Below, one piece after another: positions 27,423 to 51,097 of a stretch of DNA of 62,178 nucleotides. This stretch comes from Eubacteriaceae bacterium. GTDB lineage: Bacteria > Bacillota > Clostridia > Peptostreptococcales > Anaerovoracaceae. Made by a program: the position numbers and the translations under genes. Every line of letters starts with the position of its first letter. Within the stretch, counting starts at the first letter, position 1. Under the pieces are notes generated by a model. It saw only the letters and a program-made list of their open reading frames with translations. It was not told where the DNA came from and ran no database searches. The stretch spans positions 1 through 62,178 of the forward strand of contig CABIXY010000012.1 of the NCBI GenBank assembly GCA_902362805.1. The letters run 5' to 3'.

Positions 27423-28187
27423 TTATTTAAAATTTTGGATAATCCACGCTGCACTGGATGCGCAGGTACGGCTCTCTATGGTCATCGTCACATCGGGTCT
27501 GCAATAGGTCTTGATGGAATCCAGGACGGCGATCATATCCATCGTGCCCCTATCCAGCGGTCCATGCAAGTCCTCTCTGCCGTCGTTGTTGTGCAGGTGA
27601 AAGTGACCGATCATCGGTCCCAGAATACGAATCCAGTCGTGGATATCAAAGTCCTCACAAGTGACCGCATTGGCATGTCCCACGTCCAGGCAGAGCTGAA
27701 TCCGGGAATCGTCTAATTCTTCGATGATTTCTTTCATCATCAGCGGTTCATCTTCAAACACATTTTCAATATAGATGACAAAATTCTCTGGTTTATCTTT
27801 CATAAATTCTTGCCAGAAATAGAGAGATTTTTCTTTGTGCCATTCCTTGAAGTACAGCAAGGGCATGTGTCCAGAGTGAACGACCATTTTCTTGATTCCC
27901 AATTTCTCAGCCACGGCGTGGGCTTCGTTCAGCCTGGTCAGACCCAGCTCCACAGCTCTGTGGTCAATGGATGCCGGAATAATTTCGGTGAATGGACCAT
28001 GGATAATAGCCCGCTCTGCTCCTGCGTCTGCAATCTCTTGCTTCATCTCAGACATCGTTTCTCTTACTTTTTCCGGATCTAGATTCTCTGAAATGCATAA
28101 ATCATTCAGTTCAATATTGAAGCCATTGTTACGAATGACATCGATAGCGTTTTCTGAAAAAGTGGCGATATATATCTGCTCTCTCAT
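27423..28187 (-). CDS. B12-riboswitch-controlled TIM-barrel protein (AP endonuclease 2 / sugar epimerase fold)
   Basis: 254 residues. The fold is that of xylose isomerase-like TIM barrels, whose members are metal-dependent isomerases, epimerases or endonucleases. Probable metal ligands are seen in order: MVVHSGH, IENVFED (Glu), LCLDVGHAN (Asp, His), HFHLHNND (His), and TIES (Glu). AAAGGA lies 6 bases upstream of ATG 28187; a longer frame to 28364 crosses the riboswitch and was rejected. It is the only gene between cobalamin riboswitch 1 and a terminator, so its expression should fall when B12 is plentiful. That implies a job in corrinoid acquisition or remodelling, but the reaction is unknown. 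Confidence 0.8.
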   Translation of the reverse strand: MREQIYIATFSENAIDVIRNNGFNIELNDLCISENLDPEKVRETMSEMKQEIADAGAERAIIHGPFTEIIPASIDHRAVELGLTRLNEAHAVAEKLGIKKMVVHSGHMPLLYFKEWHKEKSLYFWQEFMKDKPENFVIYIENVFEDEPLMMKEIIEELDDSRIQLCLDVGHANAVTCEDFDIHDWIRILGPMIGHFHLHNNDGREDLHGPLDRGTMDMIAVLDSIKTYCRPDVTMTIESRTCASSAAWIIQNFK

Positions 28188-28300
28188 AAACTTCCTTTCA
28201 CGCCTCTGCAGACAAAAAATGTTTTGAGGCAGGGTGACGAATCCTGCCTCAATTATGAAAAAAGAATGAAAAGCTCGGTTATCCGTCCACCTATAAATAT

Positions 28301-28547
28301 AAAAAGACTGTGGATAACCCACAGCCCGTATTTGCTGTTCTTGCAACTTTCTAACCCAGTTCACCGCCGGAATAGAAATAATTTTATGCAGGTCTCCTGG
28401 CTCTGGAATCGTCGCTTCATCTGCCTTCCCAGAAAATCCAGTGGCATATGAGATGAAACTCCTCCATTACAGTGGCGGGACCGCACAGGCATCTAACCTG
28501 TTTCCCTCTTAGCCTTTTATCCATACAGATAAAAGGAACATAAAATT
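28301..28547 (-). promoter_or_regulatory. Cobalamin riboswitch 1 with terminator platform
   Basis: Read on the minus strand the conserved core is complete: GAGGGAA, then CGGTCCCGCCACTGT, CCACTGG, GGGAAGGC and the B12 box AGCCAGGAGACCTGC (28388-28402). P1 pairs 28380-28388 with 28539-28547. The expression platform is an intrinsic terminator (28301-28326, GACTGTGG stem with TTTTT), preceded by a CGGGCTGTGG strand that can pair alternatively. It controls the TIM-barrel gene. Confidence 0.95.
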
Positions 28548-28565
28548 GTATTGATTTACTACTTC

Positions 28566-29438: not shown

Positions 29439-29494
29439 TGTCCCCAAAGTCAAACCTTTTCGCGCAGACTTTTATGGAATTCCATCAGTTTTTC
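29439..29494. repeat. 56-bp direct repeat, copy B (native 3' end of the cysteine-rich gene)
   Basis: Partner of 28580-28635 with a single mismatch (G for A). It covers the last 15 codons of the cysteine-rich gene and 11 bases beyond the stop. Here the TTGACT element has no TATAAT at the right distance. Confidence 0.9.
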
Positions 29495-30016
29495 CATCAT
29501 GAGATCGTAATTTTCTCTCTTGTGGGGAACCATGCAGCCGCTGCAGTCTTTGACGCCGTTATCCAGATAGATAAAGTTACCGCCGCAGTCTTTGCCCATG
29601 GCATAAAGGGGACAGTAGCAGAACATACAGTTATAATTTTCCTCATCTACCGTCCTGTGACAGGGAAAGTATTCGCAGGCCTTATGACTGAAAAACTTGT
29701 ATTCTGATGCCTCTTCACAGAATTTTCCATCGTTAATGTTATAAAGACAGTAACACTCGTAACTCTCTCCCATGTAAATCCAGACATTTTCACCCATCTC
29801 GATGTGCTCGTCAAAAACGAGATCCGGAATGAAGAGTTTGATCGAGGTTCTCTTCTTTCCCTTTAAAACGACGCCCTCCTTGGTCGGGTAGGCATCAAAT
29901 TCCTCAATTTTCTGTCTCAGATTCTCAATGCCTGTTTCTTTACCGAAGTTGTCAACAAATTTGTCAACGTCGGCGTACACCACATTATTAGGATTTTTTA
30001 ACCAACTTAGGTTCAT
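29450..30016 (-). CDS. B12-riboswitch-controlled protein with a C-terminal cysteine-rich small domain
   Basis: 188 residues. The N-terminal half (about 1-110) is not recognised. The C-terminal half carries CEYFPCH, NCMFCYCPLY and DCSGC within about 55 residues, matching the cysteine-rich small domain thought to bind a metal. That domain recurs in clostridial proteins near corrinoid genes, to my knowledge without a proven function. The start at 30016 has AAGGAG about 12 bases upstream; the longer frame runs back into the riboswitch. It is the sole gene of riboswitch 2. Its 3' end was duplicated when the toxin-antitoxin cassette entered. Confidence 0.8.
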   Translation of the reverse strand: MNLSWLKNPNNVVYADVDKFVDNFGKETGIENLRQKIEEFDAYPTKEGVVLKGKKRTSIKLFIPDLVFDEHIEMGENVWIYMGESYECYCLYNINDGKFCEEASEYKFFSHKACEYFPCHRTVDEENYNCMFCYCPLYAMGKDCGGNFIYLDNGVKDCSGCMVPHKRENYDLMMEKLMEFHKSLREKV

Positions 30017-30040
30017 GATATGTAATCTCCTTTCGCAATC

Positions 30041-30282
30041 AAAAAAGACTGTGGCAAGTGCCACAGTCCGTATTTCACTGATCTTCTCTTTCCGAATGGG
30101 TTCACCGCCCTTGGAAAATATTCTATGCAGGTCTCCTGGCTCAGGAATCGTCGCTTGATCCGCCTTCCCAGCCATAAGGCCAGTGGCACCTTTAGATTAA
30201 GCTCCTCCATTACAGTGGCGGGACCGCGCAGGATTTCAACCTGCTTCCCTCTTAGCTTTCCTCGTGAGGAAAGAACACAGAA
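30041..30282 (-). promoter_or_regulatory. Cobalamin riboswitch 2 with terminator platform
   Basis: Minus-strand core GAGGGAAGCAGG, GCGCGGTCCCGCCACTGT, CCACTGG and B12 box AGCCAGGAGACCTGC (30129 region). P1 pairs TTCTGTG with CATAGAA (30121-30127 with 30276-30282). The terminator stem GACTGTGGC/GCCACAGTC (30047-30068) is followed by TTTTTT. It controls the cysteine-rich gene. Confidence 0.95.
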
Positions 30283-30310
30283 CTCAGATATTCAATTTCT
30301 CTCGAAGATT

Positions 30311-30426: not shown

Positions 30427-31068
30427 CTATCTGATTTCGATAACAGACCGTTCCCCAAAGTCCAAGATTTCTCCCAACTGGTATTTAAGCGCACTTTTAA
30501 AAACAGGCCCGCCTACTGCGATGGTGTGGTACTCACCGTTTTCACCACAGAGATCGATACCGCAGGACGCCATGATTTCTGCGGTGTCGTCCCCCAAAAG
30601 GCAGCCTAAAATCTCCCTTGGCAGGAGTTTATTGTTTATGGATTTTATGATGCACCGGAAACCGCTGCCGATAATCTCCCTGACGACTTCCTCGCGTCCC
30701 CGCTGCCACAGTGGAAATTCAGCTTTGATGCCGGCATTTTTACACCGTTCTTCACTCCACGCCCGGTTTCCCTCGATATCAATATCGCCGAATACCGCCA
30801 TTTCTGCCCCCAGTTTCATGGCCTCTGCCAGTCCTCTTTCGAATGCAATATGATACTCCTCCCCTTTTGAGGGGCACAGGATCAAAGGGGTGTCCAGCGC
30901 CTTTGAAAACTTGTCCAAAAGCTTGTAGTCCGCCCCGTGAAACCACGAGCGGTCCAGTGCCTCGTTGACCATGACCAAAAGGCCGACGGGTTCGTTCCCC
31001 GCCTCTATGAACTTATGCAGGGCAAGGGTGCTGTCCTTGCCGCAGCTATATGACATTACAAATTTCAT
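30427..31068 (-). CDS. Dph6-like ATP pyrophosphatase (DUF71/COG2102), probable corrinoid salvage role
   Basis: 213 residues. The N-terminal PP-loop SCGKDS (residues 8-13) binds ATP, and the family motif GEYHT appears near residue 180 as ENGEYHTIAVGGPVF. In eukaryotes and archaea the family amidates diphthine. Bacteria lack diphthamide, and comparative genomics has proposed that a bacterial branch of DUF71 acts in B12 salvage. The position here, between a BtuD-like remnant and two B12 riboswitches, fits that proposal. A GAGG site precedes the ATG. It has no riboswitch of its own; it may once have been co-transcribed with the lost ABC importer upstream. Confidence 0.85.
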   Translation of the reverse strand: MKFVMSYSCGKDSTLALHKFIEAGNEPVGLLVMVNEALDRSWFHGADYKLLDKFSKALDTPLILCPSKGEEYHIAFERGLAEAMKLGAEMAVFGDIDIEGNRAWSEERCKNAGIKAEFPLWQRGREEVVREIIGSGFRCIIKSINNKLLPREILGCLLGDDTAEIMASCGIDLCGENGEYHTIAVGGPVFKSALKYQLGEILDFGERSVIEIR

Positions 31069-31416: not shown

Positions 31417-34400
31417 TTATTTCGCTACTCTTATAGCCGTTGTTGACCACTTGGTATAGACTTTCTCCTTACCTATGGTCCTGTAGCCTCTCACTTTATA
31501 GTAATATCTGGTTCCCTTTTTCAGATTCTTGGTATTCTTATAGGTCGTTTTCTTCGTCGCTGTATATTTCTTGAAGTTCTTGCTGCTCTTTACCGCTCTG
31601 TATACCTGGTATCCGTCCACTTTATAACCGACAGACTTCTTCCAGTTCAGCTTCACATATCCTTTGCCGACCGCTGCAGAAAGCTTGATGCTGGTGTTTT
31701 TCACGCCTACATCGATAGAACTTCCTTTCATTGTGCGATAAATCACCTTCGACCACTTCGTATAGACTTTCTTTCCATCGATGGTCCGATAGCCTCTCAC
31801 TTTGTAGTAATATCTGGTTCCTTTGGTCAGGTTCTTTGCATTCTTATAAGTAGTTTTCTTCGTTGTGCCATACGCCTTGAAGTTCTTGGTACTCTTTGCC
31901 GCTCTGTATACCTGATATCCGTCCACCTTGAATCCTTTGGACTTGGACCACTTTAAATTGACGTAAGTTTTTCCGCCAGAAGCGCTTACCTTCAGAGTCG
32001 TCGCCTGCACACCCTTTTTAATGCGTTCTGTCTTCTCTGCGTCTGTTTCTTCGCCCTGCGCTTTAATTGCCGCGTCAATAGCAGTTTCTTCTGCAACGAC
32101 AAACTGTGACAGATGCGGCGTTGCAACCTGATAGAATGACTTCCCGTCTTTGGTGACAATCTTACCCTCTATTTTAGTCAGCAGTCCCTTATCGTTTATA
32201 TACGCTGCCACCAGAGTTTTGTCTTTCAACTTGTCTGGCACAGGGAGGGAGAGCTTTAGTTTATTTCCATCAAAAGTGGTAATCTCCTTGTCTCCTGACA
32301 ACAGGCGCACTTCTGTAATTGCCGCATCAGCTCCAAGAAGCTGCTTCTGTTCATCTGTTGCCGCCTTCTTCTCCAGGACAAGTTTTACGGTTGCCCCTTC
32401 CGCTGACTTGGCAATCTCCGCCATGGTCTTTCTATCTAGGCTTACAATACCTGCCGGCGTTATGATATTCAGAGCTGCGTCCGTCTTGGAGGCAATTCCT
32501 GACAGGGATGCTTTCGGCAGCTCCAAACTAATTTTATCAGCTTTCTCTGCACCTTTGACATTGAGTTCAATAGTGGCTGCCTCGTTCTTTATTGCTGCTT
32601 CAATGAGCTTATCTACATCGGAAGTTGTCACAGATGACGATGCTTCCCCGTCTTTGACAGTTGCGGATACGTCCTGGGATACAGGCTGTTTTTCTTCCTC
32701 CTGCCACTTGTCTGAACCTTCTTCTTTCGTATAATCATCGGTGTAGTGGAAGACAATAGTGTCACCCTTACTAAGGAATTGCTCGCTAACACCTAATTCT
32801 GGATGCTTTCCGTTAAGAGTATATAGCCAACCAGAATTCTGACCGTTAGTAAATTCTGCGAGAGTGATTCCATTATATGTAACCGAGTTAACATAGTTAC
32901 CGCTCGGATTAGAAAAGCTCAGGCCGGAGTTCTGCGCCTCTACTATCTGCATTAAGTCCCATACGGTAGCATTAACAGAAACCTCATAGGATTTCTGACT
33001 GATCCATGTCGTCAGATTTCCTGCTGATAGGGTATGTGTCGTTGTACTATCATGCACGCTGTCACCCATTAGTGTAAAGTTTACTGTTATATTCGGATTC
33101 TCAGGATCTACCTTTTGAAGCACTGTTACTGTAATTTCGGTCTTTGCATCACCATAGGCCAGTGTAACAGTCTGTTTCGCCCTAGTATTTTTGTCATAAC
33201 CGGTTACTGTAATGTCTTTCGCCACTGGATTGGTAACGTCTCCATTTGTCCATTGAGCGGTGAATTTTGCCCCGGAAAGATCCAATTCATCCCCGATATA
33301 GTATGTAGTTTTATAGTCGCCGGAAACAGCCAGCTCATAGCAAATTTTCTCAGGCATTTCGTTAGTTGCCTTTGCTAGAGAATCCTTATTCTTACCTAAT
33401 GGGTCATCTGTACGGTTCGAGGATGCCTTCCAAATGCATCCACTTACTGACGGGCATTTATCAGTACCTTTCTCTGTACTGAAGTAAACCGTTCCATTTA
33501 CAGCTGTCGGATTTTTATAATTGGTATCTACAAATTTTATTGCACCAATACCCTTGTCAGCACCACAGCTAGTAGTATAAAAGTTGCCCGCTATGTTATC
33601 AAGCTTATTTAAGCCATTATAGTATCCAATAATACCACCGACATTTTCATTGCCGCTGATCGTTCCTGTAAATGTATTTCCAACAATAGAGGACGGATTC
33701 CATGTATGTGCCACAAAGACATCTCCGCCAAGAATACCGCCGACATTTTTGTTTCCTTCAGCAGTTCCTTTCACAGAGCAGCTCTTTATTGTAATATGCG
33801 CTCCGTTAGGGGCTGAGTTGTTCACATAGCCGCCACCGACAATACCACCGATATTTTCATCGCCTGTGACACTGCCATCAAAGGTGCAATTCTTCACTTC
33901 GCATATGCCAAGTGCATTATCTCTTGCTCCAAGCATGCCCCCGACATAGTTTTTGCCCTTGACCGTAGCCTTGCTTGTACAATTTTCAATAGTTCCCTGC
34001 ATTCGACCAGCAAAGGAACCAATCATAGTCTGATCTGCATCATAGCCAATGGTAACGCCTTCTTCAATGGTACAACCACGAATTGTTACAACAAAATCTG
34101 CAGAGCAGCCGGCAAATCCATTTGTAGATATCTCAGCGCCAATGAAACCCGCCTTCTTCGTCTGAGTCCCTGTCTTCAGAGTTACATTATCTATCATAAT
34201 TGCACTTCCGCTTAAATCCACACCTGAATAGTTATTGACTAAGCCGTATCCATCAATTTTTTCACCATAAATATTCAGATTTTTGACGACAGCACCGTTG
34301 ACATAACCAAGTAAAGGTTTACTCCCTGACGGAACCGTCAATTGCTTACCGTTACCATCAATATTGCCTGAAAATGCGTTTAAATTTTCGCCCTTTTTAA

Positions 34401-36009
34401 TGTCATTTGTTCCGTCTTTTGTAACACCTATTGGTGTCCACTCTGTTGGAAGAGTAATTGTATTCACATCATCAGAGAAAATGAAGTAAATATTCTCCAG
34501 ACTAATTCCCTTTTCATTTACCAGCTTCTGTATTGCTGATAAATCCTCGCTAGTCTTTAATATATACGGTTCATCTTCAGTGCCTTTCCCCCCGTTCGTA
34601 AAGATTTTATCCAATTCTGATCCGGTTATTGTTATTTTAGCGCGGTTTGAGTCCGTCGATGCGGTGAACTTATTTATTGTGTTCGTTACTTTGCAGTAAT
34701 AATAGAATTCACCACTGTCTGAAGTGGATGGAGTATAGGAGTTTTTAGCTGCACCCTCTATCAAATCTCCTGTTTCGGTTGCATCGGTCGCTTTATACCA
34801 TTGGTAAGACAGTGTTCCACCATCCGCTCTTTTCGCAGTAACAGATAATGCGTCAGCCGTCGTTCCTTGGTCATAGGTCTTCTCCGTTTCTGGCTGTTTT
34901 GTAATTTCTGGTGTCGCCGCACTTGTTGCCGTAATCTTGATATTCGCCGCATTGCTGTCTAACGTATAGGTTTTTCCATTAACTATATATGTGACTCTGC
35001 ATTTATAAAAATTGCCCATTCCACTTGTTCCATAAGTAGTTGGAGGTTTGTAGGAGGCTGCAGTTTCACCAGCAATTTTAGTCGTATTACTTGGACTTGC
35101 GGTCCTAGAAGCAACCTTGTGCCACTGATAGGATAACGTTCCGTTTCCTTCTGTATGTACTGCTACAGTTAAAGGCTTACTCTCTGCCCCCTGCACATAG
35201 ACAATAGGCGGAATTGTCTTGAGATTTGTTGTAAAATATGGTACGTAGTCAATTTCTGTTTTCTGCAGTGTTAAAGTATATGTTGTACTTTCAAAGCCGT
35301 CAGTACTTACTACAATCGGAATCTCCATTGTATCCCCATTACTCCAGTCCGGTGTTATTTTAACTTCCTTTCCAGAAACTCCGTTCACAGTAATAGCTGC
35401 ATTTCCAGCACTCTGCGTTTTTACTGTAATTTCTGTAACGGACTTTGGAATCTCAGCAGTATACGATAAAGTATCATAAGAAAAAGAAGGTGCTATATCT
35501 CGTGTATTTCCATTATCATCCTCTAATTCCAGACCTGTTAAAAATTGTTGATATTTAATATTAATTTTATATGTTTTCAGAACACCCGAGTTATTCCCAA
35601 CCTGGATTTCCAAAGTTTTAACATCCTCGGTCAAATAAGTCTCAAGCTTTGCAAAGTTATCCGAAGATAGTTCGATGGCTGCGCCCCCTCCTACACCAGG
35701 ATATTTAGCAGTTACTTTTACATCATTTGACAGATCATCTCCCTGGTATTTAACTTGGAGTTTTGAATTTAGAGCCATATGCCAAGGCAGCACAATATCA
35801 TACTCCTCGTTTTCTGGTCTAAAAGATTCCTCTAGCTGAATATCATTCGGTTTAGAAGTGCGTGAATCAATTAGTTGAATCTCAATACCACTAATATCGC
35901 TCGCCCCCACTTGAGGTTCTGGAACATCGCTTGCCATGACCTGAACTGGAAGCATGGAAAGTATTAGTGCAAATACAGCAATTATACTTATTACTTTCTT
36001 TCTCATCAT
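31417..36009 (-). CDS. Large exported DUF4430 protein with cadherin-like, Ig-like, GLUG-type and Fn3-like modules
   Basis: 1530 residues. In order: signal peptide (1-27); a cadherin-like beta sandwich (about 155-250); two Ig-like modules with SYQWHK and SYQWYK (about 258-463); a GLUG-type beta-helix region with repeated GGI-GG turns (about 535-825); a bacterial Ig-like module (about 880-970); a DUF4430 domain (about 973-1090) with the hallmark [10 protein letters not shown] and a KGDTIVFHY strand; a linker domain shared with the 2827-residue protein; and two Fn3-like repeats (about 1340-1530) with [17 protein letters not shown]4430 has the fold of the C-terminal domain of transcobalamin. It lies downstream of riboswitch 3 behind the 224-residue gene, so a corrinoid-binding surface role is inferred. 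No sortase signal is present. Confidence 0.8.
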
Positions 36010-36079: not shown

Positions 36080-36754
36080 TTACTCAGTCCAAGCGGATCC
36101 TGTATCCCAAGTCATATCATATGGGCTGACATCAAATATGATTTCCATGCCATCTACCAATTTAATGTTGCTGGTATATCCGCTGGCAGCTGTCATGGTT
36201 CCGTCAGCATACTTATATGCTACGTTCCATCCAGTGCCTGTTGAGCGACCCCATTTGTTTCCATTTTCACCCTTAAAATAGGTTGTTGCATTGGACATTA
36301 GTGGGTAATTAACGATGTTGGAAATATAGCCGCCATTTGGTGTTGTCCAGCTGTCCCATCCGCCTACGACGGTAGGATTTCCGCTTTCATCTTCATTGGA
36401 GTAATTATCCCAAACTGCTGCAATAATTGCATCAATTACTGTTGCATCGCCTGCTTGAGGATCAGTGACACCTGCCGGCAAATAAACAGATTTCAAATTC
36501 ATATCGCTAATATAGTAATCGACTGTTGCGATATCTACATTATAGTTTGCAATCTGTGTAGGCAGCTGTGCATTAATGAAGCCATTGCCTGTATAGTTGC
36601 CAGATGTGTCAAAGTTACCATAGGTAACGGATACTTTTACGGACGGATCCACTGTACTTGCAAACGATGTTGTCGTCATAGCAAACATCATTGCCATTGT
36701 CATTACCATTGCCATCATAACAGCAATGATTCTTCTTGAACGTTTTTTAGTCAT
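36080..36754 (-). CDS. Small exported DUF4430-like protein
   Basis: 224 residues. A signal peptide rich in methionine ends at TSFAS (about residue 33). The rest is a single domain. It shows the order of elements seen in the clear DUF4430 domains: ATVIDAIIAAVWDNY (the TVWDV-type helix), GGYISNI, a GTGWNVAYKYADG segment equivalent to SGWLYKVNG, and LVDGMEIIFDVSPY equivalent to LKDGDKIVWVYT. I therefore call it a divergent DUF4430 domain. AAGGAGG precedes the ATG. It is the first gene after riboswitch 3, with a leader of about 200 bases, and is probably the most strongly expressed of its pair. A free, secreted corrinoid-binding protein is the working idea. Confidence 0.7.
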   Translation of the reverse strand: MTKKRSRRIIAVMMAMVMTMAMMFAMTTTSFASTVDPSVKVSVTYGNFDTSGNYTGNGFINAQLPTQIANYNVDIATVDYYISDMNLKSVYLPAGVTDPQAGDATVIDAIIAAVWDNYSNEDESGNPTVVGGWDSWTTPNGGYISNIVNYPLMSNATTYFKGENGNKWGRSTGTGWNVAYKYADGTMTAASGYTSNIKLVDGMEIIFDVSPYDMTWDTGSAWTE

Positions 36755-36962: not shown

Positions 36963-37220
36963 AAAAACGGACCATGGCTAAATAGCCACAGTCCGTATTA
37001 ACTGACAGTTTTCTTTCCATCCTCGTCGTTTCTCCGCCGACTAGAAATCGAATTATGCAGGTCTCCTGACTCGTGAATCATCATCCTTCTCTCCCTTCCC
37101 GGTTTCCCAGTGGGTGGCTGTGCCTTAGAGAAGAACTCCTCATTTACAGTGGCGGGACCGTGCAGGACTTACACCTGCTTCCCTCTTAGCTCCTCCTTAA
37201 GAGGAGAACATAAAACGCCG
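36963..37220 (-). promoter_or_regulatory. Cobalamin riboswitch 3 with terminator platform
   Basis: Minus-strand core GAGGGAAGCAGG, GCACGGTCCCGCCACTGT, CCACTGGGAAACC and B12 box AGTCAGGAGACCTGC (37057-37071). The terminator stem GACTGTGGCT/AGCCATGGTC (36970-36993) contains two G-U pairs and is followed by CGTTTTTG. It controls the 224- and 1530-residue proteins. Confidence 0.95.
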
Positions 37221-37245
37221 ATATGTAATTGTTTTTCGTGTCTTC

Positions 37246-37288: not shown

Positions 37289-38635
37289 TCACGACATGCT
37301 GTTATCGCCCACGTCTTTGCCCAGATCGCAAGTATAAACCCAGACAATCTTATCTCCGTCCTTCAGCGTGTATTCAGAACTTCCATAATTGGGAAAACTT
37401 CCATTGACCTTGTACATCCAGCCGCTTAACTTGCCGCCGTCAAACTCGTAGAGATAATTTATGCCCTCTACGTAATAAGAACCGTAAGTCGGCGTATACG
37501 ACGACTCTACTTGAATGTTTTTATTTCTGCATACCCTATTCAGCACATCATATGCGGTGCTGTCTTTTTTGACAGTAACCTTTGTAGTTGGCAAAATGGT
37601 TCCGTCTGATGGAACGTAAGCCTCTAGCGCCGGGTCCTCTAACTTTGATAAATCATTGGCCAACGTGTCACATCTAATTTCTATGGAAACAGAGATTTTT
37701 TCCTCTTCAGGGGTCGTTGCCGGTGAAGAACCGCCGCCGTTTCCCGTGTTGCTATTCTGATTGGAATCCTTCGAAGTGCCGCCGTCATTTTTATCCTCAA
37801 CGGCTTTTTCCGCTTTTTTAATATCCACCGTCTTCTCAGCGTCTTTGTGAATTTTTTTAGTCAAAACGACGTAATCTCCGCCCTCCTCGACAGAAAATGC
37901 CGCCTGCTGTGCCTTAAGGTCAATCTTCGCCCTGGATACATACTCCAATTTGCCCTTCTTTAAGTCGACTTTATATGCCCATCCTGTTGTTTTCTTCTCG
38001 CTATAGATAGGAATAGAGACCTTAAGTGTGCCTCCAAAGGTGCCTTGCTGGTAGAACGAGATAATCTGTCCCTGCAATGACAATTTGCTAAGAATATGAT
38101 TAATCTGCTCGTAATACGGCCCCTCTTCCTTTGCCGTCAAATTAATTGTTACAGGCTTTATTACATTGACGCCATCAAGGGTATAGGTCATCTCCTTCTT
38201 ATCCTTGATCTCTATCGTATACTCTTTTGCTTCTTTTGATGCAGCTAGTTTCTTAACTACAGACTGTTCTACGACATCTCCGTTTTCTGCATTTTTAAAT
38301 TCTTTTGTCTGGTCTTTCAAAGCCTCATAAGCCTCTTTTTTGTCGTTATACTCGCTGTCTTCAGATTTAGAAATCTGTTTTGCCGACTTAATCTGCCTTT
38401 CAAAAGCAAGCAGTGTGTACTGGGCGTACTGACCCTTTTCATTCCCTGCGTTGTTCCGTTGATCAGAGAGCAGTTCCTGGGCTGTTTTGATTTGATCCTT
38501 CAAAGAATCCGAGTAATCTGCCTTCTCAACGTTCATATCAAGAATCAGGTACACAGCCAGTGCGACTACAATCAGAATTACGGCAATGACACGCAGCCGC
38601 TTGCGCTTCACTTTCTTTTCAAAATCCTTATCCAT
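37289..38635 (-). CDS. Membrane-anchored DUF4430 protein (intrinsic-factor beta-domain-like)
   Basis: 448 residues. A basic start and one membrane helix (about 13-34) anchor it with the bulk outside. A helical, charged region follows (about 40-150), then a beta-rich module (to about 270), a Ser/Asn/Gly-rich linker (about 280-310), and a C-terminal DUF4430 domain (about 313-440) with the SGWMYKVNGSFPN and LKDGDKIVWVY hallmarks. In transcobalamin and intrinsic factor the equivalent domain covers one face of B12. The ATG follows the stop of the alpha/alpha-barrel gene by 2 bases and has only a weak ribosome site, so translation is probably coupled to that gene. That pairing suggests that the two proteins work as a complex. 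Confidence 0.82.
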   Translation of the reverse strand: MDKDFEKKVKRKRLRVIAVILIVVALAVYLILDMNVEKADYSDSLKDQIKTAQELLSDQRNNAGNEKGQYAQYTLLAFERQIKSAKQISKSEDSEYNDKKEAYEALKDQTKEFKNAENGDVVEQSVVKKLAASKEAKEYTIEIKDKKEMTYTLDGVNVIKPVTINLTAKEEGPYYEQINHILSKLSLQGQIISFYQQGTFGGTLKVSIPIYSEKKTTGWAYKVDLKKGKLEYVSRAKIDLKAQQAAFSVEEGGDYVVLTKKIHKDAEKTVDIKKAEKAVEDKNDGGTSKDSNQNSNTGNGGGSSPATTPEEEKISVSIEIRCDTLANDLSKLEDPALEAYVPSDGTILPTTKVTVKKDSTAYDVLNRVCRNKNIQVESSYTPTYGSYYVEGINYLYEFDGGKLSGWMYKVNGSFPNYGSSEYTLKDGDKIVWVYTCDLGKDVGDNSMS

Positions 38636-38637
38636 AC

Positions 38638-39930
38638 TTATTTCACTTTAACCCTCTGCACAGTGCTGTAGCTTCCATAAATCTTGTTGCCCTTGACGTC
38701 TGTTTTATAAGCCCTTACTTTTACGTAATATGTTTTACCTTTTTTCAAAGATTTTATCGTTTTTACCGTCGACGACTTGGAAGCAGTCGTGGTCTTACTG
38801 CCGGTGAACTTGCTGCTCACCGCGTATCTGATCTGGTAACCCTTCACCCCGGTGATCTTTTTCCATTTAATTGTCATAGTCTTTGTTTTCGTCGATTTCA
38901 GCGAGGTAATGGTTGCTTTCTTTGGTTTGGAGATGGTCTTCCCATCCGTCATATCATATAACGAACTCTTTCCGCCGAGCAATCGGTCATAGGCCACTAA
39001 CGTGTAATATCCCTGTTCCGTAGCCATGGAATTGACCACTGGCTTATATCCTGCTGTACTAGTATTTACATGGCGAAATCCACCGCTGTTTTCGTCGTAA
39101 TAAGTCAGCAAAGCGTCGAGCACTGACTTTCCATTTCTGATAAAGCGATTATCTTTGGTTGGATCAATCCCCAGAGCTGTCAGCCCTACGATTACCTGAC
39201 AATTGCTTTCTGCATTTTTCGTTCCCCATGAATCAAAGCCGCCGTCAGCTTTCTGCATATCAGAGAGTACTGTCAGAGCTCTGTCTACGGCAGTTTTTAC
39301 TTCGCTTCTGTTCATATAGCCCGCTAAGGCCTGGATGGCCATACCGGTTATATCACTGTCAGGCGTTTTTCCATCGAGAGAAAATCCGCCGCCTTCAATT
39401 TCCTGATCCAAAATTTCTTTTATCAATAAATCTCTTGTCGTCTGTACCTCCACACTTTTTACAGTTGGAATCTCATACATATCACTGTCTAACGCAATCA
39501 AAGCCCAAATCGGTCCGTTGATGCCCTGCCATTTTACATTCTCAAAGTCTGACAGTTTCTCCAGCAGATTGTAGCCGCCCACATTCCTCGGATCTTTGCC
39601 GATAGCGGTTACCGCTAAGCACACTCTGGAATACTCTGTATATTTTCTCTTGTCCAGTACGCCCTTACACTTCTTTACTTCTTTGACTAAATTATTATAA
39701 TAAGTTTCATATGTAGAATCTGTAACAGCAGCGCCGCCTCTGGCCAGTCCGATGATATACCATTCATCACCATATCCAGGCTGTGACAGCTTTTTTATCA
39801 TATAGCTCTCTGTCTTACTCATAGCCGTCTTATAAGACGTTCCTGCGCCTTCTGTGCCCCATGATAAGCATGTCATAGACGACATGACCAAACAGAGGAC
39901 AACGAGAAGCGATAAAATTTTTCTCTTCAT
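38638..39930 (-). CDS. Secreted alpha/alpha-barrel protein (intrinsic-factor alpha-domain-like) with Fn3-like tail
   Basis: 430 residues. After a signal peptide (1-26) comes an all-helical domain (about 30-325) with repeats of the prenyltransferase/squalene-cyclase type: NGPIWALIALDS, GGGFSLDG...DITGMAIQALAGY, DGGFDSWGTKNAESNCQVIVGLTALG and GGFRHVN. The N-terminal domain of intrinsic factor and transcobalamin is an alpha6/alpha6 barrel of this superfamily. An Fn3-like module (about 340-430) with KGKTYYVKVRAYKT ends the protein. It lies between a DUF4430 protein upstream and a DUF4430 protein downstream under riboswitch 4. A peptidase-inhibitor or glycan-related role for the barrel cannot be excluded from sequence alone. 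Confidence 0.82.
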   Translation of the reverse strand: MKRKILSLLVVLCLVMSSMTCLSWGTEGAGTSYKTAMSKTESYMIKKLSQPGYGDEWYIIGLARGGAAVTDSTYETYYNNLVKEVKKCKGVLDKRKYTEYSRVCLAVTAIGKDPRNVGGYNLLEKLSDFENVKWQGINGPIWALIALDSDMYEIPTVKSVEVQTTRDLLIKEILDQEIEGGGFSLDGKTPDSDITGMAIQALAGYMNRSEVKTAVDRALTVLSDMQKADGGFDSWGTKNAESNCQVIVGLTALGIDPTKDNRFIRNGKSVLDALLTYYDENSGGFRHVNTSTAGYKPVVNSMATEQGYYTLVAYDRLLGGKSSLYDMTDGKTISKPKKATITSLKSTKTKTMTIKWKKITGVKGYQIRYAVSSKFTGSKTTTASKSSTVKTIKSLKKGKTYYVKVRAYKTDVKGNKIYGSYSTVQRVKVK

Positions 39931-39949: not shown

Positions 39950-41056
39950 CTATCTTGCTTTCGCACTAACTGTTTGAGACCATTTCGTATAAACAGTTTT
40001 TTTGTCTACCGTTCTATAGCCTCTCACTTTGTAGTAGTAACGTGTTCCCTTTTTTAAGCTGCTTTTGTTTGTATATTTTCTTGCAGTGGTTTTACCAATG
40101 CTTCTATATACGCCGTCTTTTTTGGCAGATCTATAAATCTGATATCCCTCTGCCTTGTAACCCGCTGTCTTCTTCCAGGTCAGCACTACCTTTCCTTTAG
40201 ACACCTTTGTCTTTAAATCGGTTATCCTTGTTGCTTTCACACCGGCAGCCACTTTGCTGTCCACAGATATTTTGCAAATCGGTGCAATCAGCGGAGCATC
40301 CACATTGACGGCGGGGTTGCCTTCTGTATTCCAATCCGTTGCAGTTGTCGATATGGTTCCTCTTGCAGAAAGATAATAGGTTTTTCCTGCCTGAAAGGTA
40401 TCTTTATCTAGTTGAATAACCACTTTACCGTCTTGATCGGTCACGATCCCGTCCAATTCCTGAAATCCATCTTTTGTCATAATTCCCACTTCTGCATTTG
40501 GAATGGCCTGCGGATCTGCATTCTGTGTCATCCCCAAAAACCCTTGCAGCGACAGTGTAACGGAGTCTCCTGTGACCGCCGTGATTGCTGTCTTGCCAAA
40601 ATAGGAGAAGTAGTCGGAGTAATGCTTATCATCTGCATTGACTGAGGCAATCATTCTGTCGCCATTTTTCACAGGTTCAGATTTCACACCGCTTGTGATG
40701 GATAGGTTATTGATAAAAAACAAAGTGTTGCTGGTTTCGATCCCCCAAAGTTTGGAAACAAACTGGTCACAGATATATCCGCCCGGTTTGTACTCCTTAT
40801 GAAAAGCTTCCATGACAGCATCGATGGTCGTCATCCCATCAGCCGTCTTTACCTTCACTGGAACCTCTGCCATAACCTTACCGTCAGCCACTGCAATGTC
40901 TCCTTTTACGCTTATGGTAACGTAAATTGTTGCTGTTTTTTCGGCAGCCCCATATACGTCCTCCCTATTGATACCTACAAGGTTCATACAAGTAAACAGC
41001 ATCATGCCGATGAGTATTGCTGATGTAATGTGTCTCATCAGTTGGTTTGTTTTCAT
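39950..41056 (-). CDS. Exported DUF4430-like protein with Fn3-like C-terminus
   Basis: 368 residues from ATG 41056, which has AAGGAGG 6 bases upstream. A signal peptide covers about 1-36. A DUF4430-like domain (about 43-150) carries TIDAVMEAFHKEY, GGYICDQF and NTLFFINNLSI in the family order, but lacks the SGWLYKVNG segment in its usual form. A beta-sandwich module (about 165-250; GIVTDQDGKVVIQLD) resembles carboxypeptidase-regulatory repeats. A Fn3-like module (about 275-368) with [14 protein letters not shown] ends the protein. First gene after riboswitch 4, followed by the alpha/alpha-barrel gene after 19 bases. Confidence 0.78.
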   Translation of the reverse strand: MKTNQLMRHITSAILIGMMLFTCMNLVGINREDVYGAAEKTATIYVTISVKGDIAVADGKVMAEVPVKVKTADGMTTIDAVMEAFHKEYKPGGYICDQFVSKLWGIETSNTLFFINNLSITSGVKSEPVKNGDRMIASVNADDKHYSDYFSYFGKTAITAVTGDSVTLSLQGFLGMTQNADPQAIPNAEVGIMTKDGFQELDGIVTDQDGKVVIQLDKDTFQAGKTYYLSARGTISTTATDWNTEGNPAVNVDAPLIAPICKISVDSKVAAGVKATRITDLKTKVSKGKVVLTWKKTAGYKAEGYQIYRSAKKDGVYRSIGKTTARKYTNKSSLKKGTRYYYKVRGYRTVDKKTVYTKWSQTVSAKAR

Positions 41057-41085
41057 TCTCTCCCTCCTTAAGCAGCCCAAAGATT

Positions 41086-41495: not shown

Positions 41496-44400
41496 CTATT
41501 TTGCTGTTCTGATTGCTTTACTTGACCATTTGGTGTAGACTTTGTCTCCTGCAATGGTCCTGTAGCCCCTCACCTTATAGTAATACCTGGTTCCTTTTTT
41601 CAGGCCTTTGGTATTCTTGTAAGCAGTTTTTTTGGTCTTGAAGAAGGCCTTAGTGCCATATCCGCTGTTTTTCTTAGTGGACCTGAACACTTCGTAGCCG
41701 TCCACCTTGTAGCCCTTGGACTTGATCCAGGTCACTGTGATAGATCCCTTTCCGGCTTTGGATTTTGCCTTCAAAGCAGTCTTTCTGACCCCGGCCTTCA
41801 GTCTGGCGTTCTTCTCCTCACCTTGCTCCTTTATGGCTGCGTCGATGGTCGTTTCCTCTGCAACAGCAAATGTAGAGAGATGAGAGACCTCTGCCTGATA
41901 ATAAGCCTTGCCGTCCCTGGTCACTACTTTTCCGGACAGCTTTTCCAGTTTACCGTCATTGCCGATGACGACCGCTGCAACGGCCTTGTCATTCAGCTGA
42001 TCAGGTACTGGCAGAAGCAGCTTCAGCTTATTTCCGCCAAAGCTTCTGATTTCTTTGCCGTCCGAAAGAAGGGTTACTTCTGTGACGGCTGCCGACTCAC
42101 CCAGAAGGACTTTCTGTTCATCCGTCGTCATCTTCTTTTCAAAGACAATGATAACGGTCGATCCTGTTGCTGCCTTTGCAATCTCCGCCATGGTCTTTCT
42201 GTCCAGGTTCATCTCTCCTGCCGGTGTGATAATATTTAAAGATGCATCTGTCTTTTCTGCGATATCTGAAAGAGATGCTTTCGGCAGTTCCAGAGAAATC
42301 TTATCTGCTTTGCCCGCTCCGTTCACGCTTAATTTTATGACACCGGCTTCGTTCTTCACTGCCTCTTCAATCAGCTTGTCCATCTCAGTGCTATTGACAG
42401 TAGCAGAAGCTTCGCCGTCTTTCACTGTTGATGTCACATCCTGTGAAATCTCTGTCTCTTTATCTCCCCAATTTCCGGCATCTGGATCCTGGGTATAGTC
42501 TCCCGTATAATACAGCTCAATTTTATCGCCGTCCTTCAGATAACAGCTTCCCATATATACATCAGGTAATTTGCCGTTGACCTTATAGAGCCAGCCGCTG
42601 TTAACAGAATCCGTATCGGAGAGTGTCGCTCCAGAAGGATCCGTAATAGAAGCCACATAGCTGCCTACTCCAGTATAGGCATAATGATTATCAGACATGG
42701 CAATCTTTACAACATCCCAGACGGTCGTCGTATCAGCATCAAGACCACCTACGGTATAGGAAGGCATATTTTTAAAGCCCTTCACGCCTTTACCATCTAT
42801 GGAGACGGAGGCTTTGATCTCTAATGGCGGATTGGGATTGTCTGTTCCAGTGCTGCCTTTAACAGCAACCGTTGTAGAAACCGGCTGTTTGTAGAATTGC
42901 TGGAACTGCTGGTACTGAGACGCTTTTGCTGTATCTTTGTACTTTTCCCAATACTTGCCGAACTCGTTGTGGGTCAGTACACTGTCTATCTTTACCTTCG
43001 TGTTGTACTCCGGCTGTATTACGTTCAGCGTTTCATATTCAATTACCCGCGGCTTGCTAGTGCGGAATTCTCTCCAGGTCTCATTGAGAAACGGGTCATA
43101 GCCTGGGAGGTCGTCTACTTCAATGCCGCCAAAAGTCAAATTGATAGCCCCTCGGACATATTCTAAGGAGCCGTCTTCCTTTTGCAGAATTTCTACAAAT
43201 GGATTCAAATCTCCCGTGATTTCATCTTTAGAAGCGTTCTCGCCTTTGATGCCTTGCCAATAAGCACTTTCCTCCAATGCTGCCTTCATAAATGCGGCAC
43301 CGTCTTTCAGTTCCTTTTCTGTCAAAGGTTTTACGGTCAGATAAAAAGTCTTCTTTGCATATACATCTTTTTCATTTTTATATTTATGAATTGTAATCGT
43401 ATACGGCACATTTACTTCTTTCTGTCCCGGCAGCGGACGATAGACTTCTGCATGGTAGCCGTTAAATTCCAGCACGTCCGTGTTCCCGCTCTCCATCTTG
43501 ACTTGATAGTCCCAGCGGTCCATAACACCTGCATCGGTCAAGGCCTGTGATGTCGGCATCTGGATATCGTTTGTTACAGAGTTGACATCAATTGGTTTTT
43601 TCTTATCGACAAAATCTCGCAGAAGGCCTTCATACTTTTCTTCCAAAGCTGTCTGCATCTGTTCACTAGGATCTTCCGTCAACGGCGCGATAGTGATGAC
43701 AAAGTTTCTAGTGCCTGTCATCCACAAGGTGTCCTCCCCCTTGTTTTTGAATTCATTCTCCGTATACTCGTCAAAGAGATTAAAGGTGGTCAAAGCTGTC
43801 AAAGTAAAGGTTTCCGGCTCACTCCCTTTCCTCGGCCTGTTCAGCTTCGCCGAATAGCTTCCATCTGCATTCTGCGATACCAGAACGGCATCTGCATCCA
43901 TGGATGCCCATTTTACAGTTACCGGCTGTCCTGCGATTGCAGTTGGCAGTGTCAAATCCTCGGAAACCTGTCCGTCCACTGTAACCGTATCCCACCAGTC
44001 AGCAGGATTTTCTTTCTTGGTCTCTGCTGTATTTTCATTGCCGCCTTTAATAGTATCCCAGGTAATCGTATTGACCGCATCGTCCAGCTTCTGCTCGACA
44101 ACCTTTTCATCCCAGCCGATATGTACGCGAACCTTAACGTCTACGGACTGGGTGCCTAGCTTCAGCTTGAAGGCGACATCATTGTACTGCGCATATTTTG
44201 TACCGTTTTGACCTTCTACTCCTGTAAAATACTGAATTGTTCCGTCTGGCTGCAGATTTACCTCGGCGTTATTTGGCATGGACTTGGTTCCCGCATTGAC
44301 AAAGTCAACGCTGATTTTATCTTCACCATCATCATAGGAATAGTCTTTCAAATCTACATCATAACCGGCGCGGCTCAGGTATTGTTCCATCGCCTGATAA

Positions 44401-47400
44401 ATCTTGGTCTGATTGTAGCTCTGTAATGGTTGAATAAATACGCTTGACTGTTCCAGTTTATCTTTGATTCCGTTTAGGTTCTCTAAGTCCTGCTCCCCTC
44501 GTGACCAAAGCACGAGATCAAAATCTGCAACAGTGCTTTCAGTGCCTTTTCGAATTGTTGCATGTATCGTGATTTCTTGTTTGCCGCTGTCAGGTAATAC
44601 AATCGTACCGGAACTATCCCAATTTACGGTGCACCCGTTTACATTGCTGTCCAAGGTTAAAGTTTGGGCTGCTCTAAAGTGATATTTTCCTTCTGCATCT
44701 GGCTTCATGACCTTGCCATCTGCATCTTTTAGCGCAAGCTGTGCCTTTGCTGCAATTACGGCCTTCAAATCATCATTTAATTCCGGTGTCTTTCCGCCCT
44801 GCCAATTTAACACCGGATAACCGCCGTTAATGCCGTCATCTTGAAGGAATGCCTCACCAGTGCCATTGAGTTCCAAAACAAACTGCGGAGATTGCATCTG
44901 CGACACTGTTTTCTCTGTTGCAGTGGCTGTACCGCTGGCAAAGGCGTTTGCCGCACTACCTTGGAGATAGTACGTATTCGCAACGGTTCCTTCCATTTTG
45001 CCGGCAATCGCTCCGATACCATCTGCAGGGCCTGTTATCAAACCTGCATTATACACATTCTTGATGACACCACTAGAATATAACATCCCTGCGATACCGC
45101 CCACACAACTATTTGTTGTGTGATCAGGTTTTGCTGTCACGGCGCCCGTATTGTAACAATTTTCAATTGTGCCATAGGAATATCCGGCAATCCCGCCTGT
45201 TTTCAGCTCGCTGTTATAATAACTGCAGGTGTTCTCTATTGTAGCTGTATTCACACAACTGCGGACTGTACTTTCAGCGCCTTGCATTCTTCCAGCGATG
45301 CCTCCTGTGCCACTAGTTCCAGTGCCCGTTACCGAACCTGCAAAAGAACAATTCTCTACTGTTCCCTTGTCTAAAATTGAAACAATTCCGCCTGCAATGA
45401 TTCCGTTCACTTCACCGCTGACAGACAAATTTTTGACGCTGCTGCTTTCGCCTGCATATCCGAATAAACCCACATTGCTCTTCAAGCCGGATACTGTTTT
45501 CCCATTGCCGTCAAAGGTTCCCATGTAAGCTGCTGGCGTTGGATAACTGTTCTTGCCAATGCCCGTCCAATCCTTATTGTTCAAGTTAATATTTTTTGTC
45601 AATACCGCATCATAATCACCGTGTTCTTGGTTACTGACCTGGTCCGCAAACCATGCCAGTTCCTCCGCACTGGATATTTGATATACATCGCTTTTTTTCT
45701 CCGGCTCTGATTTAGTTTTACCATCCCATGCCACCCCAGCAAATTCCAAAGTGACCGAAATAGTCATATTCTTATCCAAGGTAAAGCTTTCCGTCTTTGT
45801 CACATAGCTCTCTGATGAAACCGTATAGCTATAGGTCTCATCTTTAGGTAGTTTATATGTTCCATCCTCTTGTCTAAAGGCTTCCATCGTATCCCCTGAG
45901 GCATTTGTAACTTCTATGGTATACGAGCTGATCTCAGAAGGCAATACTTCAAATTTTGCCGCAGCCTGTTCCACTGCCTCCATGGATACGGTTTCTGCCT
46001 TGCTTTGCTCATCGCCGACATGCAGCGGTCTATCTGTAATATCTTTATAACCAAAGGCCTCAACAGAATAAGTGTAATTACCCTTTTCCAGAAGATATTT
46101 ATCTCCGATAGGTTTTATGATATCACCATCTTTTATGACGGTGATTGCCGCATTCTCTGGCGCTCCTTCAAAAGTTACCGCAGTTAATGCCTTCGCCTTA
46201 AAACCCTTTAACCGAATCCAATTCTCATCTCTTGGATTCATATCAGAATTGTTGACATAGCATTTGTAGTTAAGTGTTATGATATCCCCTGCATCTGCAG
46301 AAATCTTATAGCTTTTCCAATCCTGGCTGACTTCCTCAAAGCGATCCACTTGCTGATTGTTTTTCTTTATGATCAATCCATAATCACTGTCAGTCAAAGT
46401 GCTGCCAAGCTCAGAAATCATATAGTCAAAAGTCAGTTCCGTTGGCTTGTCAAAAGTCAGTGTCATAACACTCGTGGTATTCGTTTTACTATTGCCAGAC
46501 TGTAAATAGCTTGTGTCATGATCTTTTGTTGCAATAAACGGGTATGTATTGTCGTCCTTTGCCGATACACGGTCCGCAACATCTGCAAAGAAGTCTGCAA
46601 GGGTCAGTTTCTTGATCATATCGACAGTAATCGTTTCTTCCTTACTGCTTACTGTAAATAATCCCCTTTCAGGTTCACATCCTTCACAGGTCACAGTGTA
46701 TGTATAGGTGCCCTGTGGAAGGCTGGCTCCGCTGGTAAAGTCTACAATTTGGTCGCCGCTTTTTATTTCTATTTCCGCATTCGCCGTGATATCAGCTGGT
46801 TTATTGATGTCAAAGTTCACGACGTAGGACTCGGCTTTCTCCATGGCACCATTGATTTTGAGATCCTCTCCATCTACAGTAAATGCCTTATTTGAAACTG
46901 GCACATAACCAAAAGCTACTGCAGAATAGGTATATTCGCCGTTTTCCAGCAAGTAATCACCGTCTGCAGGTTCTATCACTTCCTCCTCCTGTTTCACCGT
47001 AATTACCGCATCTTCCGGCATCCCATCAAAAGTCAGCTTGTAAAGCGGTACAGCAGAAATCTCTTTTATCCGAGCGGTATCTTCCCCCGTATTTCCGCTG
47101 CTATCTTTCGTATAGGTTACGGTTACTTTATCGCCTGCTTTTCCTGTAATCGTCAGGGACGTCCATTCTTTTCCCGTGCCGCTATCCGTGACCAGGGTAT
47201 CGTTGTTCTTTTTTATCAGCAGTTTGTCATAGTTCTTCTCACAATCTACCTTGTATTTAAAGGTCAGCTTGCCAGTTTCCTTAAAAGCCATCGTCATGGT
47301 TGCATTTGAATTGCCTTTGCTTTGGTTCGCAGAGGCAAGGACATTTTCAGAATCGTCTTTGTCCGGCTTAAATCCATAGTCGATACCATTTACCGCTTCA

Positions 47401-49979
47401 ATCAAGTCTTTAAATTGGGAAAAGAAATCTTCAAAGACGGTAACTCTCGTCAAGGTCTTTTCTATTGTTTGTCCGCTGCCATCAACCGTAATATCTCCCG
47501 TCACAGTTTCGCAGCCATACAAAGTGATGGTATACGAATATTTGCCGTCTGGCAGTTTAAAAGTCGTTCCATCTGTTTCTGGCTGAATCGTGACACGCTC
47601 TTGTTTGACTTCAATTTGGGGAGCGCCTGTCACTCCTTCTGGAACGGTGATCTCAAATTTAATATTTTGGGATGCTTGTCTTTTTAATTCTATAGTTTCG
47701 TTAATATCCCCATTCTCCACGGTTACGGACTTTGTCTCTGTCTCATATCCGAATTTTGATGCGGTGTAACTGTAAGTTCCGTTTTCCAGAGAATAAACAT
47801 AGCTTCCCTCTGACTTGGAGTCTGGTTCAATCACTGTTGTTTCTCCATCTTCCATCAGCTCAAAATCTGCATCCTTTGGCGTTACTACAAAAGATGCGGT
47901 GTGCAATTCTTCCAGCTGGAAGTTTTTCAGCCATACACAGTCCGAACCTTTTTGGGTGCTGGAATCTTTTATATAAACTATAGTAATTGTGTCGCCGCCT
48001 TTAACCTTTTGTTTATAGGCCGTCCAACCTTTCTCCCCACTTATCTTTGATCCGTCATTGATTTCCAGCCCATCATACGAGACTTCTGAACTAACTTTAT
48101 AGTCAAATTTAAGGATTGATGACTTAATGTCTTCATTAATGGTAATCGTTATTTTCACTTCAGAGTTGTTTTGATTGTAACTGTTAGATTTTAGTGCCTC
48201 TTCAGTCTCATCGTCTATAAATTCTTGTCCAGCTTCACCTTTCCAACCTTTAGAACTGTATTCGACCTTTGCTTTTCCTGCCAGTCCATTAAATGCCGTG
48301 CTTGGAAATGGCTTTTCTTTGATTGCTACAAGATAAGTCGTTGTTTTACCTTTATAAGTAACCGTCAAGGATTGTGATTCTATCGCTGTGGAAGAGTCAA
48401 ACCCCGCTATCTCAAATCCCGATTCAATTACTTTGGAACTTTTATCTGCGTAATTGACCTTCAATGACAATTTCTTGTCCAGTTTATCGCCAACATAATA
48501 TTCTGTTTTAGCGGTTCCATCCTCTACGCTGATTGATTCTACTGGATTTAATGTTATTTTTTCTGTTGCGTCCCCATCTGTAAGCGTAACCTGACCAGCT
48601 ATATCCTCACAGTCATCGGCCGAAATGGTGTAAGTATACTCCTTATTTTTCAGCAATTCATACACATTTGCTTCGTTGGAGGTTATCACTTTGTCCCCGT
48701 CCTTTACGACTATTTTATAGGATGCAGATCCCGTAACCTCAAAGGTTAAATTTTCCCATAAAGAGTTGTCCTTGGTAAGGGCTACAGATATAGGGCCTAA
48801 TGTCTCCCCATTGTCGGCCTGGTCAGCTGTTACGGTCAAACTACCCGTCATTTCAGTATAGCCATCTTTTGTCACGGCATAACTATATTCGCCCTGCGGT
48901 AGGGCAACTGGGCGCTGTCCACCTTTGTTTGATGTATGTACAACATTGTCGCCTGATGTGACAGTCAATACAGCATCTTCTGGTGTAACACTAAAAGTCG
49001 CTGTCGCAGTAGGAATTTCCCACGAGAGAACAGGGTAGCCTCCTGCCTTTGTCATGAATCCGCCGCCCAACGAACTTACAAAATCAGAAGCTTTCATTTC
49101 CTCTGTCGATTTACTTATGACCTGCCCTGTTATTTCTTCAGGAAGCTCATATCCAGAAATCCCATTTGTACAGCTAGTGTCGAGGTAATAACAATTATTT
49201 ATTATCGTGTTTTTTGTTGCCCAACCGGCAATCGCGCCAAAATTGCTTGTAGCGCTACCGCCTATAGTGCCTGAACTGTAGCAATTTCCAATTGTCAATG
49301 TGCCAGCATTTCCTGCAATTCCTGCACAATACGCCGAGCTTTTCCTTGTGGATGTTACAACACCTCGATTATAACAATTTGTTATAGCGCCTGCGGTAGC
49401 ACTCCCAGCAATTCCTCCCGTCCACCGACCTGAAGAGTTTTCATTCTCAATGTCTCCAGTATTGCCACAGGAGGTAATAGTTCCGCCTGTCATATTAGCT
49501 GCAATGCCACCAGCGTAATTACCATTCACGGTAACAGCTGCAGTATTAAGACAGTTTTCAATGGATCCTGAGGTTGTTCCTGCAATCGCTCCTACAGTGG
49601 TAGTTCCACTGATTACTCCTTCCGTAATTACATTTTTAATAGTGCCGCCAAGATTTCCTACTAGTCCTGTGCTTGTGGCGGTAAATGTAATCTTATGCTG
49701 TTCCCCATCAAAGGTACCATTATATGTCACATCGTTACCAATAGGCACCCAATCTGAAGATACTTCAATATTGGCTTTCAGAGCCGCATTCACTGCGACA
49801 TCGCCAGAATTCACGCGTGCCGCAAAATCCTTAAGATCCTGCTCACTGCTTATTTCAACAGCATCGCCGTCTTCACCATATGCAATCATACCCGTTCCCG
49901 GCATATAGGTAACAACCGTTACCATTACCAGGAGTATGATGGCTATTTGTTTCAACTTATTTCTTAATTTCCAATTCAA
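41496..49979 (-). CDS. Giant exported DUF4430 surface protein
   Basis: 2827 residues. In order: signal peptide (about 1-36); a GLUG-type beta-helix region (about 40-320); a long series of PEGA-like and carbohydrate-binding-like beta modules (about 325-1400), each with a GTYTY or GEYTY-type strand; a second GLUG region (about 1425-1725); several bacterial Ig-like modules (about 1740-2370); a DUF4430 domain (about 2390-2500) with [13 protein letters not shown] and [12 protein letters not shown]; a linker domain; and one Fn3-like repeat at the end (about 2730-2827). From DUF4430 onward it is closely similar to the 1530-residue protein. The start is TTG at 49979 with GGAGG 9 bases upstream; the first in-frame ATG falls inside the signal peptide. 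Downstream of riboswitch 5, so probably induced in B12 shortage. Confidence 0.82.
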
Positions 49980-50369: not shown

Positions 50370-50412
50370 GTGTTTTCCTCCATAACATAAATGATTAAAT
50401 CTGAAAATAAAA

Positions 50413-50776: not shown

Positions 50777-50798
50777 TAAATATGAAATTCTATCATCT

Positions 50799-51052: not shown

Positions 51053-51097
51053 AATCATTCTCCTTTCGATACCGTTAGCGTTAAAAAGTTTTGTATT

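Follow-up and report, generated by a model that had tools for sequence, protein, structure and literature searches.

Can a vitamin B12 carrier of the intrinsic-factor type be built from two separate bacterial proteins? The question is raised by two adjacent minus-strand genes in a stretch of 62,178 nucleotides (hereafter the window; contig CABIXY010000012.1 of assembly GCA_902362805.1, positions 1 to 62,178) from a Eubacteriaceae bacterium near Emergencia timonensis, whose barrel protein in locus L001 is 94% identical to that of the window. The genes encode a 430-residue barrel protein (38638-39930) and a 448-residue DUF4430 protein (37289-38635) separated by two bases, exactly where an earlier note on this DNA had placed them; all gene bounds are mechanical open reading frame calls. 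Judged by sequence, the two B12-regulated genes look like the separate halves of human intrinsic factor and transcobalamin, one secreted and the other fixed to the membrane. We consider it likely that the pair is a corrinoid binder of the intrinsic-factor/transcobalamin type, made as two separate halves, that hands its ligand to an energy-coupling factor (ECF) importer.

The domain make-up of the two proteins is consistent with this assignment. The barrel protein has a signal-peptide-like N-terminus, an alpha/alpha toroid (about residues 34-330) and a C-terminal FN3 domain (about 345-414), the last exceeding its own Pfam cut-off. The toroid carries QW/GGF-type repeats (IEGGGF, KADGGF, and SGGFRH), as the earlier note had seen, but the FN3 tail contradicts its description of the protein as all-helical. 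Pfam matches of the barrel were weak (SQHop_cyclase_C, E 6.8e-5 and 22.5 bits, below the cut-off of 26.1; Prenyltrans, E 0.056). Only one hydrophobic segment per protein stood out when hydropathy was scanned (threshold 1.6 on means of 19 residues), at residues 5-23 of the barrel protein and 14-32 of the DUF4430 protein. In the latter, the segment is followed by a FIVAR-like helical bundle (41-120), a weakly matched ZU5-like beta domain (about 119-264), a linker, and a DUF4430/transcobalamin-type beta-grasp domain (about 311-443). PF14478 matches residues 358-435 (E 1e-19; 71.2 bits, the cut-off being 23.8), which bears out the description of a membrane-anchored protein ending in DUF4430.

Control of the pair by B12, also claimed earlier, is supported by an upstream cobalamin riboswitch (RF00174, 41157-41350, minus strand, 120.6 bits), but the operon is more than a pair, as three minus-strand genes follow the riboswitch: one for a 376-residue protein (39950-41080), then the barrel gene, then the DUF4430 gene. 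The leading gene is listed from a TTG at 41080, although an ATG at 41056 behind GGAGG is the likelier start. Its product appears to contain a divergent DUF4430-like domain and an FN3-like tail; hhalign gave 80.8% against the DUF4430 profile from only three sequences, the protein's own hmmsearch was not significant (E 2.5), and a relative in locus L002 matched DUF4430 with E 1e-7. A promoter-like TTGACA-17-TATAAT with 12 of 12 matches (41388-41360, minus strand) lies just upstream of the riboswitch, and a terminator-like hairpin with a T run (41113-41090, minus strand), the probable expression platform, lies between the riboswitch and the first start codon. The window contains seven cobalamin riboswitches, all on the minus strand and all above the gathering score of 31.5 (105.4-125.2 bits). 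The promoter, aptamer and terminator arrangement is common to all seven, with poorer promoter matches at 37274 (9/12) and 56370 (10/12). Such sites are frequent in this DNA anyway, with 43 promoter-like sites vs. 34.5 in shuffled sequences and 31 terminator-like sites vs. 15.9.

The ECF importer expected in the same locus was found in a minus-strand operon (51429-54960). The substrate subunit EcfS (51429-52364; PF07155, E 3.1e-18) is CbrT-like, its best match among PDB structures being 6fnp_A (E 4.3e-6) and the next 4hzu_S (E 0.013). Structure 6FNP is ECF-CbrT, which imports cobalamin and cobinamide according to the portion of PMC5997447 drawn on here. Upstream are genes for a fused double ATPase, EcfA-EcfA' (52343-53998), with two ABC_tran stretches (PF00005, E 7.7e-58), and for an EcfT-like membrane subunit (53971-54960) without a Pfam match at E 0.01, called from its position, its several membrane segments and its conservation in related loci. 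The cobalamin riboswitch of this operon (56023-56212, minus strand) has a promoter-like site at 56370-56343 and a terminator-like hairpin at 55976-55949. The first gene behind it (54869-56062, minus strand) encodes homing-endonuclease-associated repeats (PF18780, E 1.2e-35); relatives of this protein are encoded immediately ahead of EcfT in L003 and ahead of a DUF4430 gene in L005.

One contig scan with the barrel as query yielded 43 related loci; Blautia wexlerae (L019) and E. timonensis are among the species represented. An anchored DUF4430 protein is encoded in 30 of these loci. Its gene overlaps the barrel gene or lies within 160 base pairs on the same strand in 24 (barrel first in 18, DUF4430 first in six); in the remainder it is 585-1341 base pairs away (three loci), on the opposite strand (two) or fused to the barrel gene (one). 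Matches to the window's EcfS were present in 25 loci and to its EcfT in 26, all 26 of which also encode a DUF4430 protein. The fusion has 1026 relatives; in all 120 of those listed the two domains keep one order and are accompanied by two membrane segments. Two membrane crossings would place both domains on the same side, presumably the outer one.

The search for the same gene pair in other genomes, which the earlier note had proposed, was productive. Among 196 genomes drawn evenly from the class Clostridia (the class in the NCBI lineage of E. timonensis), the barrel was detected in 59, DUF4430 in 66 and both in 51, so that 51 of the 59 barrel-bearing genomes also have the partner. This and the 43 loci go beyond what chance would give. 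Genome G022, which matched only in the C-terminal, mostly FN3, part, was left out of the barrel count (60 reduced to 59). The two genes are no more than 3 kb apart in 49 of the 51 genomes, a figure that covers all 100 and 85 matches of the two scans. The ECF ATPase was detected in 71 of the genomes, 62 of which have DUF4430. The P values for co-occurrence, calculated over the 196 genomes with kinship ignored, were 6e-25 and smaller.

Cobalamin riboswitches are concentrated in the related loci, with 37 spread over 23 of the 43. Their density in the loci was 52 per Mb vs. 1.6 per Mb in 21 genomes (94 above-cut-off matches in about 58.2 Mb, from rounded sizes), a ratio of about 32; the 21 genomes were hand-picked from the 43 loci, mostly those with riboswitch or ECF genes. 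In the L001 genome, seven of 10 cobalamin riboswitches are on the contig of this locus (binomial P 3e-11 under random placement). Back-to-back cobalamin riboswitches on opposite strands were also observed (L017:1344-1819, L016:7209-7686, L043:1490-1957, and L038:7361-7948).

The fold of the barrel was read from a model of the relative in L043, not of the window barrel itself, and is the alpha6/alpha6 barrel of the animal carrier family. The beta-grasp domain is C-terminal with a hairpin inserted after the helix, as in the transcobalamin clade. Other marks of the transcobalamin-like clade of SLBB proteins, namely an exported DUF4430 protein, a toroid partner and CbiO/CbiQ-type operon neighbors, are also present. 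Transcobalamin-2 was the best match of the DUF4430 profile A4 (58 of 79 DUF4430 pieces), although with a marginal E of 0.0077. No animal B12 carrier was found by barrel profile A1 (12 of 12 matches listed) or among the best 60 of 105 matches of A2, which was built from 22 of the 120 listed fusions; alignment A3 comprised 43 of 120 listed relatives. Comparison of the barrel with Pfam gave no animal relatives among the 25 of 82 families listed, which does not exclude the unlisted families, and the viral structure library gave nothing at E <= 1e-3. Individual residues at the barrel mouth are invariant or nearly so.

How such a pair might work can be outlined. At low cellular B12 the riboswitch terminator, seen as a hairpin behind the aptamer, would presumably not form and the operon would be transcribed; we infer every step after expression. 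The barrel protein would be exported and probably remain near the wall, and its one helix would keep the DUF4430 protein on the outside of the membrane, with the beta domain atop a stalk of FIVAR and ZU5-like domains. A corrinoid could then be held between the beta domain and the barrel mouth, which by analogy with human transcobalamin would close around it. Human transcobalamin halves made separately assemble on cobalamin, and the separation lowers affinity (portion of PMC5599065 drawn on here), a direct precedent for the assembly step. Because the bacterial halves are not covalently joined, they would hold the ligand less tightly and let it go more readily than the animal carriers do. The CbrT-like EcfS would then take over the released ligand, EcfA-A'-EcfT would import it, and the carrier would not be destroyed.

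Several results weigh against a dedicated pair of this kind. No riboswitch is present in 20 of the 43 loci, and the corrin synthesis gene CbiC is present in 10 of the 21 genomes, so that an inability to make B12 does not hold as a general rule for organisms with the system. In the L043 model the domains are not placed as in holo-transcobalamin, and average conservation is no higher at the barrel mouth than at the opposite end. A mirror-tree analysis of 26 loci and the window argued against an exclusive pair, as the partial correlation between barrel and DUF4430 protein was 0.12, hardly above the expectation for a shared operon, compared to 0.34 for barrel and EcfA and 0.53 for DUF4430 and EcfA. 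Together with the 15 of 66 genomes that have DUF4430 without a detected barrel, this suggests that the DUF4430 protein may be a constant importer subunit and the barrel more exchangeable. The anchored DUF4430 protein would then be an extracellular ECF subunit that binds corrinoid itself, the barrel an accessory for capture or hand-over, and a closed sandwich unnecessary. EcfA accompanies DUF4430 in 62 of 66 genomes, and the isolated beta domain of human transcobalamin binds cyanocobalamin (5np4; the same portion of PMC5599065). Yet the close spacing of the barrel gene in 24 of the 43 loci and 49 of the 51 genomes, the single-chain fusions that join exactly these two parts and the divergent barrels that may have escaped detection in the 15 genomes make this explanation rather unlikely. 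It overlaps the split-carrier reading up to the last step.

The ligand may also differ. A preference for another corrinoid-related compound (for instance the precursor cobinamide or a fragment of the nucleotide loop) or another tetrapyrrole over complete B12 would fit riboswitches that report the end product rather than the ligand, an importer of the CbrT type that also carries cobinamide (PMC5997447) and an isolated transcobalamin beta domain that binds cobinamide as well (PMC5599065), as far as those portions of the papers go. The riboswitches and the link to CbrT indicate corrinoids in general without discriminating among them. We judge such a preference unlikely; it is compatible with a split carrier, and the likelihoods given for these readings need not add up to certainty. 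A closer fit to another alpha/alpha family, which the earlier note had named, in combination with no pocket at the DUF4430 interface, as counting against its proposal, was found for the barrel alone: the nearest structures to the L043 barrel are terpene cyclases, followed by sugar epimerases, and the barrel sequence profile matches squalene-hopene cyclase (E 1.3e-9). With FN3, FIVAR-like and Ig-like domains abundant, the barrel could be an extracellular enzyme of the terpene-cyclase or epimerase type, with the DUF4430 and FN3 proteins serving as adhesins or wall scaffold. DxDD and DDxx[DE] are the catalytic motifs of class II and class I terpene cyclases, respectively, and neither occurs in L043 or in the barrel protein of the window. 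The barrel is exported, and its gene is repeatedly found near B12 riboswitches and an ECF importer of the B12 type; we consider an enzyme highly improbable. The proposal of an extracellular split B12-binding pair holds in part: riboswitches, importer and conserved pairing support it, and the mirror-tree speaks against exclusivity. We regard the split B12 carrier as plausible, well supported by context, not proven and partly anticipated in print.

The window's B12 cluster contains further genes, all on the minus strand. Two riboswitches lie in tandem, with a small open reading frame behind the terminator-like hairpin of each. The one at 51168-51368 (promoter-like site 51410-51382, hairpin 51127-51103) precedes a frame of 67 residues (50855-51058); the other, at 50581-50787 (50827-50799 and 50538-50513), precedes one of up to 113 residues (50139-50480) and then the gene for a 2827-residue secreted multidomain protein (41496-49979) with DUF4430 at residues 2420-2492 (PF14478, E 1.5e-9). 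The riboswitch at 37039-37228 (37274-37246 and 36996-36967) is upstream of genes for a 224-residue secreted protein (36080-36754) and a 1530-residue secreted multidomain protein (31417-36009) with DUF4430 at residues 1014-1090 (PF14478, E 2e-10). The 224-residue protein resembled DUF4430 by eye only and was rejected as unproven (hhalign probability 0.2 and 2.9). The riboswitch at 30109-30295 (30339-30311, 11/12; 30069-30046) belongs to a cysteine-rich zf-like protein (29450-30175; PF04071, E 1.1e-27) with relatives in L004, L018 and L023 (two copies). That at 28370-28558 (28594-28566, 11/12; 28327-28305) precedes a xylose-isomerase-like TIM barrel (27423-28364; PF01261, E 6.6e-18), a candidate corrinoid-salvage enzyme with relatives in 11 of the 43 loci, one of them weak. 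A diphthamide-synthase-like protein (30427-31068; PF01902, E 1.9e-32) is also encoded within the cluster. Elsewhere in the window are the bacterial large signal recognition particle RNA (18006-18195, minus strand; RF01854, 102.3 bits) and a tandem trio of similar membrane transporter genes (6168-10895, plus strand; 466-472 residues), whose products resemble sodium:neurotransmitter symporters.

The genes are conserved well enough to be of wider use: both halves occur in 51 of 196 sampled Clostridia genomes, and 62 combine the DUF4430 half with the ATPase of the importer. Tentatively, and with somewhat less than even confidence, we propose a natural split intrinsic factor: two proteins, one of them tethered beside a CbrT-type ECF importer, that close only around B12. 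Dividing and anchoring the carrier would be how bacteria solve the problem of release, where animals internalize their carrier and digest it, and membrane systems of this sort, split or fused across Clostridia, would be of the type that gave rise to the animal carriers. If the split pair works, it would explain how a very tight B12 carrier can give up its ligand and stay intact, and intrinsic factor would gain a bacterial counterpart for its origin.

Intrinsic factor, transcobalamin and haptocorrin (2pmv, 2bb5, and 4kki) share with the window pair an alpha/alpha barrel and a DUF4430-type beta-grasp domain, the barrel first in gene order, an extracellular location and the transcobalamin-clade hairpin after the helix. 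The animal carriers are single chains, as are all 120 listed bacterial fusions, barrel first, whereas the window has two chains with their own stops, two bases apart. The bacterial DUF4430 half is membrane-anchored on a FIVAR-like and ZU5-like stalk and the barrel has an FN3 tail; the barrel alone is nearer to terpene cyclases, and the pair is likened to the human proteins by sequence and predicted fold. A DUF4430 protein of Ruminococcus gnavus, RUMGNA_00854 (3u7z), was solved alone under the title 'putative metal binding protein'. BtuG and BtuH of Bacteroides are likewise surface proteins of gut bacteria that capture B12 for an importer, but they are Gram-negative lipoproteins, BtuG working with BtuB (portions of PMC6143338 and PMC8941943 drawn on here). 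The window's EcfS has its best solved match in ECF-CbrT, and the Lactobacillus ECF-CbrT transports by itself in liposomes, with extracellular capture proteins not mentioned in that portion of PMC5997447. In the part of PMC1796856 drawn on here, Burroughs et al. (2007) predicted bacterial toroid-SLBB proteins and proposed B12 scavenging; these have the same two domains, belong to Gram-positive bacteria, are encoded next to CbiO/CbiQ (ECF-type) genes and take stand-alone, fused and FIVAR-fused forms. That text deals with toroid-SLBB fusions and with a second, paralogous kind of SLBB protein rather than a split barrel with a membrane-anchored partner, does not contain the word riboswitch and does not name a CbrT-type substrate subunit; searches of the open-access literature did not find the split form and its riboswitch wiring in print. 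New here are the split over two genes, the membrane anchor on one half, the seven B12 riboswitches, the CbrT-like subunit and, elsewhere, the membrane-spanning fused form.
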